This document shows positions 23,704-31,340 of a DNA stretch of 38,209 bases, in pieces. Position 1 is the first letter of the stretch, and every line of letters starts with the position of its first letter. The DNA lies in the NCBI GenBank assembly GCA_021295755.1, contig JAGWBT010000007.1, forward strand, positions 1 through 38,209, given 5' to 3'. A program made the position numbers and the translations under genes. This DNA comes from Candidatus Poribacteria bacterium. Its GTDB lineage: Bacteria; Poribacteria; WGA-4E; PCPOR2b. Under the pieces are notes generated by a model. That model made no database searches. It saw only the letters and a program-made list of their open reading frames with translations, and was not told the origin of the DNA.

Positions 23704-26316
23704 ATGCGCATTGACAAATTTACACAAAAGGGTCAAGAGGCACTTCTAGAGGCGCAGAATTTGGCACAGAAGTACAATCACCCGGCGGTCAAACCGGAGC
23801 ATCTGCTCAAAGTGCTAGTTGAGCAAGAGGGCGGAGTCGTGCCATCTGTTCTCAAACAGATTGGCGTGGATACCGATACGCTGGGACAGCGGATTGATGA
23901 GACGTTGGATCGTATGCCACGTGCCACGGGTGCATCGGTTCAAGTTGGAATGGCTCAGGACATCGTCAGTATTCTCGACGCGGCAGAAACAATCGTCGAT
24001 AAGATGAAGGACGATTACACGTCTACCGAACATATTCTGCTGGCGATGGTGCAGGCGAGGGCATCTACAGTCCGCGAACTGTTAGCCACCTTCGGCGTGA
24101 ACGAACAGAGCATCATGGACGCCCTGATGGGTATCCGTGGCTCTCAACGGGTCAGCAGCCCAACACCCGAAGACCAGTATGAAGCGTTGGTCAAATACGG
24201 TCGTGACCTGACACAGGAGGCTCGTAAAGGGAAACTCGATCCCGTGATTGGGCGGGACGAAGAGATTCGACGCACGATTCAGATTCTGAACCGGCGCACG
24301 AAAAACAACCCGGTACTTATTGGTGAGCCGGGCGTGGGTAAAACTGCTGTCGTTGAGGGGCTTGCACAACGAATCGTGCGAGGCGATGTACCGCTCGGGC
24401 TTAAAGACAAACGGCTTGTTGTGCTTGACCTGGGTGCATTGGTCGCCGGCGCAAAATATCGTGGTGAGTTTGAGGAGCGTCTGAAGGCGGTGCTGCAAGA
24501 AATTCAGAATGCTGAAGGACAGATTCTCCTCTTTATCGACGAGATGCACACCCTTGTCGGCGCAGGGGCAGCCGAAGGTGCGATGGATGCGTCCAACATG
24601 CTCAAGCCGATGCTAGCGCGCGGTGAACTCCACGCCATCGGTGCAACCACGCTCGACGAATACCGCAAACATATCGAAAAAGATGCTGCGCTCGAACGTC
24701 GTTTCCAGCCGGTCTACGTCGATGAACCTTCCGTTGAGGATACCATCAGCATCTTGCGCGGTCTCAAGGAGCGATACGAAGTCCATCACGGTGTCCGTAT
24801 CACTGATAGCGCAGCGATCTCCGCTGCGACCTTGAGCCACCGCTATATCAGCGATCGTTTTCTGCCGGACAAAGCGATCGACCTTGTGGACGAGGCTGCG
24901 AGCCGACTCCGCACCGAGATTGATAGCAAACCGGCGGAATTGGACACAGTTGACCGAGAGGTCATGCAGCTGCAGATCGAACGGGAAGCCTTAAAAAAAG
25001 AGAAGGATGCAGGCAGCAAAGAACGGTTGACAAAAATCGAAGAACAACTCGCCAACCTCGAAGAGAAAAGCACACAGCTGTCCGTCCGTTGGCAGGCTGA
25101 GACGAGTGCTATTGAGAAGGTACGCGGTATTCGTGAGCAGATTGACCAAGTCAACCAGCAAATCGAGGAAGCGGAGCGTCAGACAGATCTGCAGCGAGCC
25201 GCCGAACTCCGCTACGGTCATCTCCGTCAGTTAGAGAATGATCTTGCTAACGCCGAAGCAGCACTCGTACAACTTCAGGGTGATGGTGCCCTGCTAAAGG
25301 AAGAGGTAGATTCCGAAGACATCGCCGCCATTATCAGTAAGTGGACAGGAATTCCGGCGAGTAAACTGCTAGAAGGTGAGATCGAAAAACTGGTGCAGAT
25401 GGAGAAACGGCTGCATAACAGAATCGTCGGGCAGGACGGTCCTGTCGATGCGGTGGCGCGGGCGATCAGGCGCAGTCGTTCTGGCTTACAAGACCCAAAT
25501 CGTCCGATTGGTTCGTTTATCTTCTTGGGACCGACGGGTGTGGGTAAAACTGAACTCGCCCGTGCGTTAGCCGAATTCCTATTCGATGACGAGCAGAACC
25601 TGGTGCGGATCGACATGAGCGAGTATCAGGAACAACACACCGTGGCACGCTTAATCGGCGCACCGCCAGGCTATGTGGGGTACGACGAGGGCGGTCAGTT
25701 GACCGAAGCTATCCGACGCCGTCCCTACAGTGTTGTGCTGTTCGACGAAATTGAGAAGGCACACCCGGAGGTGTTCAACGTCTTGCTACAGGTGCTTGAT
25801 GATGGTCGGCTCACCGACGGTCAAGGTCGTACCGTTGATTTCCGCAATACGGTCATCATCATGACCAGCAACATCGGCAGCGATTCGATCCTCAACATTA
25901 CGGATGATAAAGCGATGCGTGAGCGGGTGACCTTTGCGCTTCGTGAGCATTTCCGTCCGGAGTTTCTGAACCGGATTGACGAGGTGGTGTTTTTCCATCG
26001 CCTGGAAAGCGAACACATCCGTCAAATTGCAGAAATTCAACTTGGCAACGTTCGTGAGTTGCTAGCCAAACGAGACATCTCGATCGAGATGACAGATGCT
26101 GCGGCAGATCTCCTTATTCAAGAGGGCTACGACCCCGCTTACGGCGCACGTCCCCTCAAGCGTGTGATTCAGCAGCGCGTCATTGATCCGCTAGCGATGC
26201 AGGTTATCCAGAACGAGGTGCGTGATGATGACTATCTGTTCGTTGATGCGAAGGAGGATGAACTGACATTCACGGTGACTGAACCGGCTGCGGTAAATAA
26301 GATCGCTGCGGATTGA
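23704..26316 (+). CDS. clpB: ATP-dependent disaggregase chaperone ClpB
   Basis: An 870-residue, full-length Hsp100 chaperone that rescues aggregated proteins with DnaK. The N-terminal Clp repeats (1-145) are followed by nucleotide-binding domain 1 with Walker A GEPGVGKT (207-214), Walker [10 protein letters not shown] and the [12 protein letters not shown] pore loop. A long coiled-coil middle domain (about 400-530) distinguishes ClpB from ClpA and ClpC. Domain 2 has Walker A GPTGVGKT (about 609-616), GYVGYDEGG pore loop and [12 protein letters not shown]. The C-terminal arginine-rich [11 protein letters not shown] region is complete. AGGAGGAATTATT gives a strong ribosome-binding site. I found no CIRCE operator in front, so heat-shock control of that kind is not supported. 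Confidence 0.97.
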
Positions 26317-28705: not shown

Positions 28706-29194
28706 ATGAAACGCAGATGGTTCGTACTCACAGCGATTCTCGCAATGGCAGCAGTTACCGTTTTCCTGACCAATCAAGTCACCCAAGCCCAACGTCCAGA
28801 CCGCGGCGGGATGCGCGGTGGTGGTGGAGGCGAAAGACGTGGTGGGGGCGGAATGCGTGCATTCAATCCCACCTCAATTATTGACAATTCGTGGACAGAC
28901 CTCACATTCTCACTAAAGGTCGATAATGACACGCTCATCAAAGCCCGTCCAGTTTATCAGAAACATCGTGATGGTCTTGAAACAGCTGTCAAAGAAGCCA
29001 GTAGCTCCGGCGATTTCAGAGCAGTACGCGAAGCCATGGGGAAAATTCGCGATGGGTTTCAAACAGATTTGAAATCAGTTCTGACTGAAGAGCAGGTAGC
29101 CAAACTCGACGCACTCCAACAGGAGCGGATGCAGCAGATGATGAATCGCGGTGGAGGTGGAGGCCGAGGAGGTGGCGGCGGCAGAGGCCGCTAA
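28706..29194 (+). CDS. Small secreted Gly/Arg-rich Spy-like protein
   Basis: A 162-residue exported protein. The signal peptide covers about 1-28 (hydrophobic LTAILAMAAVTVFL, cleaved after VTQA). A Gly/Arg-rich stretch (residues about 31-51) is followed by a mostly helical region with the Spy/CpxP-type signature LTEEQVAKLDALQQERMQQM, cut here at the family-like LTxxQ motif around residue 126, and then a GGGGGRGGGGGRGR tail. Spy-type proteins are periplasmic chaperones or stress sensors, but the tail is not part of the known family. AAAGGAG lies eight bases before the ATG. A strong terminator follows, so this gene can be transcribed alone. The Gly/Arg-rich pattern recurs in the next gene. Confidence 0.7.
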   Translation: MKRRWFVLTAILAMAAVTVFLTNQVTQAQRPDRGGMRGGGGGERRGGGGMRAFNPTSIIDNSWTDLTFSLKVDNDTLIKARPVYQKHRDGLETAVKEASSSGDFRAVREAMGKIRDGFQTDLKSVLTEEQVAKLDALQQERMQQMMNRGGGGGRGGGGGRGR

Positions 29195-29207
29195 GCCATA
29201 ACATAGG

Positions 29208-29250
29208 AACAAGGGGAGATATGGATTCGTCCATTCTTCCCTTGTTTTTT
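29208..29250 (+). terminator. Rho-independent terminator after the Spy-like gene
   Basis: A long stem (AACAAGGGGAGATATGGA with TCCATTCTTCCCTTGTT, one bulge and one wobble) closes on a TTCG tetraloop at 29226-29229 and runs straight into TTTTTT at 29245-29250. It lies between the Spy-like gene and the adaptor gene, so the adaptor either has its own promoter or depends on read-through. Confidence 0.85.
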
Positions 29251-29276
29251 GTCTCGCCAACGAAGGGGAATAGCCG

Positions 29277-31340
29277 ATGCAAAAAAAATGGATCATTATC
29301 ATAGTGATTGCCGTCGTGATTCTCGTGTCCGGCGGCTTGTTGCTGCGCGGACAATTTGCTAAGGCAACCAAGGAGGAAGCCAGCAATGCGCCTGCAATCA
29401 AGACCGCCACGGTTGAGCGGGGCAATATTGAAGTGACAATTGACGCCACCGGGACCATTGAGCCGCTTAACATTGTTGAAGTGAGCTCCAAAGCCAGCGG
29501 TAAAATTTTAGAAATCACCGTTGAAGAAGGGGATTATGTGGAACAGGACGCTGTGATTGCGCGTATCGAAACCACCTATGTTTCAGCGGATCTGGAGCAG
29601 GCAAAGGCGGACTTTAACGCCGCCGAAGCACGCCTTGAGCAATCGAAGATTAATATCGAGTTGCAAAAGGAACAAACCGCGATTCAGATTCAACAAGCGG
29701 AAGAAAAGTTAGCCGAGGCAAACAAACAGTTGGAACAACTCAAAGAACAGATATACATAGAAAAAATAACCAATCAACGCCAGTTAGACGATGCGGAAAA
29801 TAGCCACGAGATGGCAAGGTTGCGATACGATCTCCTAACATCTAAAACGGTGCGAGAGGAGGAAAAGAAGCGTGCAGAAGCTAGTGTAGCTCAGGCAAAA
29901 GCCAACTTTGACCTTGCCAAAAAGGAATATGAGCGAAAGCAGAAACTTTTCGAGGGAAAATATATCTCAAAATCAGATCTTGACGCCGCTGAAACGCAGC
30001 GTAACTCCGCACGAGCGCAATACAACTCGGCTGTGGAGCAAGCCAAGCTAGTGGTACAACCGGCAAGCGAAGCGGAGTTAAAACTCTCAGAGGCTGAGAT
30101 TAAGAGAGCGGCGTACGCGGTTGATGCAGCAAAAGAACAGATCCAGAAAGAGAAGTATCGGGACATGGAGATAGAGATTCAGCAGCATCGTGTTACACAA
30201 GCCGAGGACGCTTTGGAGTTGGCACTTGCTAACAAGAAACAGATCAATCTGAAGGAAGAAGAACTGAAAAGTTCCACTGCGCAACGGATGCGTAGTGAGA
30301 GTGCTTTGCGACTCGCACAAGAAAGTTACGACGATACGGTTATCCGCGCCCCCATCTCCGGGACGGTTCTCGAAAAAAGAGTGGAGGAAGGACAGGTAAT
30401 AGTCTCTAGCTTTAGCAGTGGGGGAAGTAGGGGCGGTGCTGCTTCGTCCGAAGGGCAGGTGCTAGTAACGATGGCAGATCTCGAAAAGGTTTATGTGGCA
30501 ACGGAGGTTGACGAAACCGATATCGGCAAGGTGAAGGTCGGGCAGTCTGTGACCATCACCGTCGAAGCCTACCCGGACCAGCCGCTGCAAGGGCAGGTGC
30601 TTCGCATTGCGCCGCAAGGGCAGGTGGTTCAAAACGTAACGACATTTAAGGTCATCACCGAAATTACGAATACGCGTCCAAGGGGACGAGGGCGTTGGGG
30701 GAGAGGCGGTGGATTCACAGATCGCGGTGATAGCGGTTTCCCCCAAGGTGAGAGCAGGGGCGAATTTACGCCGGAGCAGCGAGAACGTTTTCGACAGATG
30801 CGTCAGCAGCGACAGGAAGAGGCGGCAGCGTCAGAGAGCACCGAAACGTCCAACGAAAATTTAGCGGAGGCTACCCCCACAGAAACACCCGATCCGTGGA
30901 TGGCGATGGCGGATAACTTCTTCGGCGGTCAAGGAGGGGGAGATTGGAATCGTGAAGAAACCCCATCGGAAGATACGGATACGCCATTCTTGAAGCCGGG
31001 AATGAATGCGACTGTTGAGATTGCTGCCACGAACAAGCGAAATATATTGGTTCTCCCGAATGAGGCGATTCTATCTTTCGGGAGCCGAAAAATGGTCCGT
31101 GTCGTCGGCGAAGATGGTCAGCCGGGGCGTCCACAGCCTATTGAGGCAGGCGTGAGTAGTTTCGACAGGACAGAGATCATCTCCGGCTTGAACGAAGGGC
31201 AAGCTGTCGCCGTAGGCGGTTTCGAGCGCAGAGGTGGCGGGGACATGGAGCGGTTCAGGCGTATGATGGGAAATCCGGCTTCTACAATGAGACGGATGCA
31301 GCGGAACGCCGGCGGCGGTGGCGGAAGAGGAGGCCGGTGA
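29277..31340 (+). CDS. MacA/HlyD-type periplasmic adaptor with Gly/Arg-rich insert
   Basis: A 687-residue membrane-fusion protein, much longer than usual (about 370-400). Residues 5-25 are a membrane anchor. A lipoyl half-domain starts VEVSSKASGKILEITVEEGDYV; a very long alpha-helical hairpin (about 105-350) with heptads follows, then the second half (VIRAPISGTVLEKRVEEGQV). The beta-barrel domain is split by an insert (about 465-570) that is Gly/Arg-rich and contains FTPEQRERFRQMRQQRQ. LKPGMNATVEI then resumes the normal fold. The C-terminus ends in a Met/Arg-rich helix and GGGGGRGGR. AAGGGG precedes the ATG. With the MacB-type permease 22 bases downstream it should form part of an export complex. 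Confidence 0.88.
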   Translation: MQKKWIIIIVIAVVILVSGGLLLRGQFAKATKEEASNAPAIKTATVERGNIEVTIDATGTIEPLNIVEVSSKASGKILEITVEEGDYVEQDAVIARIETTYVSADLEQAKADFNAAEARLEQSKINIELQKEQTAIQIQQAEEKLAEANKQLEQLKEQIYIEKITNQRQLDDAENSHEMARLRYDLLTSKTVREEEKKRAEASVAQAKANFDLAKKEYERKQKLFEGKYISKSDLDAAETQRNSARAQYNSAVEQAKLVVQPASEAELKLSEAEIKRAAYAVDAAKEQIQKEKYRDMEIEIQQHRVTQAEDALELALANKKQINLKEEELKSSTAQRMRSESALRLAQESYDDTVIRAPISGTVLEKRVEEGQVIVSSFSSGGSRGGAASSEGQVLVTMADLEKVYVATEVDETDIGKVKVGQSVTITVEAYPDQPLQGQVLRIAPQGQVVQNVTTFKVITEITNTRPRGRGRWGRGGGFTDRGDSGFPQGESRGEFTPEQRERFRQMRQQRQEEAAASESTETSNENLAEATPTETPDPWMAMADNFFGGQGGGDWNREETPSEDTDTPFLKPGMNATVEIAATNKRNILVLPNEAILSFGSRKMVRVVGEDGQPGRPQPIEAGVSSFDRTEIISGLNEGQAVAVGGFERRGGGDMERFRRMMGNPASTMRRMQRNAGGGGGRGGR

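Follow-up and report, generated by a model that had tools for sequence, protein, structure and literature searches.

A small Spy-like protein gene upstream of genes for a MacA-type adaptor and an ATPase-less MacB-type permease in Candidatus Poribacteria

To our knowledge, the way in which MacAB-type pumps collect their substrates from the periplasm is not settled. In Spy and CpxP, as is predicted for the small protein described here, LTxxQ motifs begin helices. The RxxxLxxxxxxS motif at the hairpin tip docks the adaptors MacA, AcrA, and MexA to TolC (PMC3391258). According to a review of the MacB superfamily, the NBD is not always fused in its members (PMC5985334), and YknWXYZ is cited there as a transporter of four components: a MacB-type permease, an ATPase that is separate from it, an adaptor, and one further component. 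The adaptor SilB ends in a C-terminal domain with homology to CusF, a metal chaperone that exists as a protein of its own (PMC4446572).

We analyzed a window of 38,209 nucleotides on contig 7 of a 5.03-Mb Candidatus Poribacteria assembly, which encodes a small, probably exported Spy-like protein, a MacA-type adaptor, and a MacB-type permease (Table 1). An ORF check and a motif scan confirmed the coordinates, reading frames, and quoted motifs of the first-pass annotation of this DNA. Our searches of open-licence papers turned up neither a Spy-like protein encoded alongside MacAB nor a MacA-type adaptor of this kind in Poribacteria. A full-length gene for a ClpB-type disaggregase, identified by eye, lies on the same strand about 2.4 kb upstream (positions 23704-26316).

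Table 1. Positions in the window of the three genes, their notable segments, and the intergenic hairpin
Feature	Residues	Position	Strand	Basis
Small exported Spy-like protein gene	162 aa	28706..29194	+	ORF
Probable signal peptide (...VTQA)	1-28	28706..28789	+	Hydrophobic helix 8-28 in model, sequence inspection
Last helix of small protein, starts LTEEQ	126-148	29081..29149	+	Conservation; model helix 128-149
Gly/Arg (RGG) tail of small protein	149-162	29150..29191	+	Sequence; predicted disordered; pattern rare in genome
Intergenic hairpin followed by T6 (small gene to adaptor gene)		29205..29252	+	Fold energy, conservation in genus
MacA-type periplasmic adaptor gene	687 aa	29277..31340	+	ORF; Pfam and MacA structure matches
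RxxxLxxxxxxS hairpin-tip motif (RKQKLFEGKYIS), TolC-docking signature	220-231	29934..29969	+	Motif scan
Insert in beta-barrel-domain loop	466-569	30672..30983	+	Alignment; directly before conserved FLKPGM strand
Conserved helix within insert, FTPEQRERFRQMRQQRQEE	497-515	30765..30821	+	Model, conservation
Second conserved insert spot, D-[PD]-W...F-F (DPW...FF)	538-549	30888..30923	+	Alignment
C-terminal motif MMxNPASTxRRM and flank	656-675	31242..31301	+	Alignment
Gly/Arg tail of adaptor (GGGGGRGGR)	676-687	31302..31337	+	Sequence; one of four GGG[R/S]GG codon-pattern sites
MacB-type permease gene without ATPase domain	404 aa	31363..32577	+	ORF; Pfam

Besides its probable signal segment, the small protein has a Gly/Arg-rich N-terminal part. 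Using AlphaFold with six near relatives, we obtained a model in which the body (residues 57 to 149) is predicted to form helices at 57-69, 74-101, 104-125, and 128-149, with moderate confidence (pLDDT about 70 to 90), and in which both Gly/Arg ends are predicted to be disordered. In an alignment of 33 sequences of the family, residues L126 and L134 were invariant and Q130 was nearly so. LTEEQ (residues 126 to 130) is the only LTxxQ motif of the protein; the earlier long helix begins with KVDxxTL instead. No Pfam or NCBIfam match above cut-off was obtained, and the weak matches were to CpxP (NCBIfam, 17.7 bits against a cut-off of 148) and to the Pfam LTXXQ family, the latter in 3 of the 33 members. 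Searching the family against solved structures by sequence gave no match. The best Foldseek matches of the model were a Salmonella VirG-like protein, CpxP (3itf, ranked third, E 0.63), and CnrX (E 1.9 to 3.6), none of which was significant. "Spy-like" is therefore used here as a fair description of the small protein; kinship with the Spy/CpxP family is not established by sequence.

Several observations concern the surroundings of this gene family. In genome G001, the small gene sits after genes for an ECF sigma factor, a zinc-finger (zf-HC2) anti-sigma factor, and a MucB/RseB-like protein (L088 1420-4338), a context that fits the one typical of envelope-stress genes. Downstream of a small-protein gene lies one for a predicted protein in which a sigma-70 region 2 domain is joined to WD40 repeats (L078 3867-5501). 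At another place in the window's own genome, a neighbouring pair of LTxxQ-like proteins was seen that look exported and have Gly/Arg tails (L129 19249-19821; L002 1480-2696).

The hairpin between the small gene and the adaptor gene, where the first-pass annotation had placed a terminator, proved to be real, folding at -26.6 kcal/mol (z -6.1), and it was not listed by a consensus terminator scan. It is kept in the six members of the genus; the T6 that follows it in the window is not present in all relatives. The hairpin is a likely attenuating terminator, and such a terminator might allow the small protein to be made in excess.

The adaptor matched HlyD_D23, HlyD_3, and Biotin_lipoyl_2 above the Pfam cut-offs. 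A profile of 34 relatives retrieved MacA structures first (E 1e-38 to 6e-29), and the top five, 4dk1, 4dk0, 9qgy, 5nik, and 3fpp, are all MacA proteins. Within the tip motif, R220 and L224 were invariant and S231 nearly so across the 34 adaptors. At the N terminus, where a MacA adaptor would have its transmembrane helix, residues 4 to 30 form a helix in a low-confidence region of the model and are hydrophobic by inspection. Outside the coiled coil, the adaptor model, built from an alignment of six near relatives, was poor; a fold search with it returned coiled coils alone, because this alignment gave a usable model for the hairpin only. The coiled-coil hairpin itself is very long (residues 98 to 355, window positions 29568-30341), and adaptors from deep lineages of the phylum align along it as well.

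We compared adaptors of the window's family (f1) with those of its sister family (f4). The insert was present in all 31 aligned adaptors of the two families, including all 22 aligned from f4, and in none of the four from deep lineages. Its core, FTPEQRERFRQMRQQRQ, is predicted to be helical (residues 499 to 517) at low model confidence. Identity between f1 and f4 was 61% in the insert helix, as against about 15% in the loop around it. Two conserved segments had been overlooked in the first-pass annotation: the DPW...FF spot of the insert, whose identity was 0.67 within each family and 0.28 between them, and the strongly conserved MMxNPASTxRRM region, with an identity of 0.69 between f1 and f4, which was also recognisable in the deep lineages (for example, RMKNPMSNFQRM). 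The Gly/Arg tail that follows had an identity of 0.48 between the two families.

The permease matched MacB_PCD (1.2e-50) and FtsX (1.6e-22). No ABC_tran domain was detected in it by Pfam, and no ATPase was found beside it. In the window's genome, the closest relative of the ATPase found in the deep lineages adjoins another MacA-like adaptor (contig C183, L101); in relatives, this second cluster of an ATPase and the other MacA-like adaptor also has a TolC-type channel. By eye, we also noted that, in one relative, an inserted TnpB/OrfB-like gene separates the adaptor gene from the permease gene (L019 8163-9419).

We then surveyed 85 genomes of the phylum, counting as orthologous those adaptors that scored over 300 bits. 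The small-protein family was found in 78 of these genomes and orthologous adaptors in 66. In the window's family, the small gene lies directly upstream of the adaptor gene in eight of nine genomes; in the ninth, G001, the two are on different contigs. The deep lineages G009, G010, and G012 also have a small gene close to, or directly beside, a cluster that encodes an adaptor, an ATPase, and a permease, with a TolC-type channel. The small gene and this adaptor gene are thus long-standing neighbours. The adaptors near the small gene in these lineages are without the insert. In f4, the adaptor was present in 52 genomes and the small gene was beside it in none of them; where f4 genomes are complete or nearly complete, the genes are far apart (in G028, for example, at 2.05 versus 4.75 and 1.78 Mb). 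Two genomes with an insert-bearing adaptor, G030 and G031 (90% and 95% complete), contained no small gene, even by profile search. Conversely, families f2 and f3, as well as five genomes of f4, have a small gene but no orthologous adaptor. Since the small gene can be distant from the adaptor gene, as in f4, or present without it, the two are not an obligate pair.

The first-pass annotation had taken shared modules in adjacent genes as a sign that the two proteins interact or that one had been copied into the other. The survey does not bear out this link: the insert occurs without adjacency in f4, and adjacency occurs without the insert in the deep lineages. This decoupling makes copying from the neighbour unlikely, and we rejected the copied module as our main reading on this ground. 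For the same reason, the association of the small gene with the adaptor appears to be older than the insert, which survives without adjacency. Free variation of the inserts in adaptors without a Spy-like neighbour had been named as an observation that would count against the idea; inserts without such a neighbour do occur, but their helix is conserved rather than freely varying (61% against about 15%).

We also measured the resemblance between the two proteins directly. At the level of profiles, the insert helix scored 20.0 against the small-protein family, whereas column shuffles gave 9.8 +/- 1.8 and none of 80 reached 20.0. HHalign assigned the match a probability of just 4 to 13% over 19 columns, and shuffle tests with single sequences were borderline (P 0.01 to 0.46, depending on the segments compared). 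The likeness is real but minimal and limited to the LTxEQ helix start, which is too little for a copied domain; convergence on this common start is more likely than a copied module. The tails fared differently. As single sequences, the adaptor tail and the small-protein tail scored above shuffles (P 0.0045 to 0.02) because of their Gly/Arg run, but at the family level the comparison was not significant, as 8.7% of shuffles reached the score, and we rejected tail homology for this reason. A relation between the Met/Arg part of the adaptor tail and the helix of the small protein, which the first-pass annotation had also proposed, was not detectable (P 0.25). The exact GGG[R/S]GG codon pattern occurs at four sites in the 5.03-Mb genome, two of which are in the small gene and the adaptor gene. 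Background rates were taken from 626 kb of sampled genome stretches with 504 ORFs; a Gly/Arg C terminus was seen in 1 of these 504, on a contig that had been included because the match was already known there. A second insert-like site in the genome (C45, E 0.006) falls in a PEP-synthase-like protein and was dismissed as chance.

Our preferred reading, held tentatively at a probability of about 0.45, is that the locus encodes a reduced MacAB-type export module, with the predicted Spy-like protein as its ancestral accessory and an adaptor to which flexible segments were added later. It draws on the adjacency in eight of the nine f1 genomes and in the deep lineages G009, G010, and G012, where an ATPase, a permease, and an outer-membrane channel are clustered as well, and on the conservation of the insert helix and the tail motif above their surroundings. 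The MacA profile match, the tip motif, the four predicted helices with LTEEQ opening the last, and the envelope-stress-like context in G001 also speak for it. Against it count the distance between the genes in f4, the small genes that lack this adaptor, the two adaptor-bearing genomes in which no small gene was detected, the insufficient sequence evidence for Spy kinship, and the poor adaptor model outside the coiled coil. A possible but somewhat doubtful alternative is that the genes are independent: the small protein would act in periplasmic stress generally and only happen to be encoded upstream of an exporter in some lineages, the insert and tail would act within the pump, in adaptor-permease or adaptor-adaptor contacts, and the Gly/Arg tails would have arisen separately. 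The separate locations throughout f4, the occurrence of small genes in f2 and f3, where this adaptor is missing, and the sigma/anti-sigma/RseB-like neighbourhood in G001 all agree with such independence, as do the lack of significant tail similarity between the two protein families and the fact that the window's genome encodes a further protein that looks exported and has a Gly/Arg tail. However, the adjacency is seen in four separate families of the phylum, more often than chance would be expected to produce in genomes about 5 Mb in size, and tails of this Gly/Arg type are rare in the window's genome.

The view of the first-pass annotation, that the helix and tail of the small protein were copied into the adaptor and that the proteins dock through these shared modules, would explain both the profile score above all 80 shuffles and the occurrence of rare Gly/Arg tails in both genes; given the CusF-homologous domain of SilB, a copied partner is also of a known type. 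We nevertheless consider it unlikely, with an insert that is missing beside the small gene in the deep lineages and present without the neighbour in f4, and with at most one helix in common at the low HHalign probability given above. The small protein could instead sense or chaperone metals, as a relative of CnrX or ZraP in kind, with the exporter acting as a metal pump; CnrX and CpxP among the weak structural matches and Met-rich stretches in both proteins would speak for this. The residue content led us to reject this highly improbable alternative: the mature small protein has no Cys and one His, the insert has no His, and the adaptor has no Cys; moreover, the transporter is MacB-type and not RND.

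Under the preferred reading of an ancestral accessory to a reduced exporter, the small protein and the adaptor may work together. The small protein would be a Spy-like periplasmic holdase or sensor serving the exporter; it could bind an unfolded or peptide-like periplasmic substrate and either keep it export-competent or report on its export. From the alignment, we infer that the insert and the C-terminal tail project from the beta-barrel and membrane-proximal ends of the adaptor, the side that would correspond to the MacB contact in the solved pump, where substrate enters. With the insert lengthening a loop of the beta-barrel and the tail coming after the MP domain, both would hang at the pump entrance. 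Their flexible Gly/Arg linkers with short conserved helices could act as docking or substrate-holding arms, and these arms may hold the substrate, the permease, or the partner. ATP hydrolysis would have to come from an ATPase encoded elsewhere. A more specific version, chaperone-coupled MacAB-type export, in which the predicted Spy-like chaperone hands a protein-like substrate to an adaptor with chaperone-like helices on its arms, strikes us as rather improbable. A Spy-like protein as an old companion of the pump, together with conserved flexible adaptor segments facing the transporter, would offer a testable case of a periplasmic chaperone feeding a MacAB-type pump, and would extend the functions attributed to a phylum that is known chiefly through genome assemblies.

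Compared with MacAB-TolC, the locus has the same adaptor domain order, lipoyl and barrel domains, the RLS tip motif, and a MacB_PCD/FtsX permease. Unlike MacAB-TolC, it has no ATPase in or beside the permease and a Spy-like gene upstream. At the site of the adaptor's loop insert of about 104 residues, the matched segments of E. coli MacA are separated by about 15. The stretch that links the first lipoyl half with the tip motif is an estimated 120 or so residues long (about 39 in the E. coli protein), and the C terminus is extended by about 39 residues, unlike that of MacA. The small protein resembles Spy and CpxP, with their fold relatives CnrX and ZraP, in being small and exported-looking, with four predicted helices and LTEEQ opening the last one; it differs from them in the lack of a significant sequence or fold match, in KVDxxTL replacing the first LTxxQ, and in long Gly/Arg regions at both ends. 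As in CusCFBA/SilB, an exporter adaptor goes together with a small partner protein of the periplasm; SilB carries the fold of that partner as part of its own chain, whereas here a short helix alone resembles the partner, with no folded domain, and nothing indicates metal binding. YknWXYZ likewise combines a MacB-type permease and a separate ATPase with an adaptor and an additional component, although it is Gram-positive and has no outer-membrane channel, and we know of no resemblance between its fourth component and Spy.
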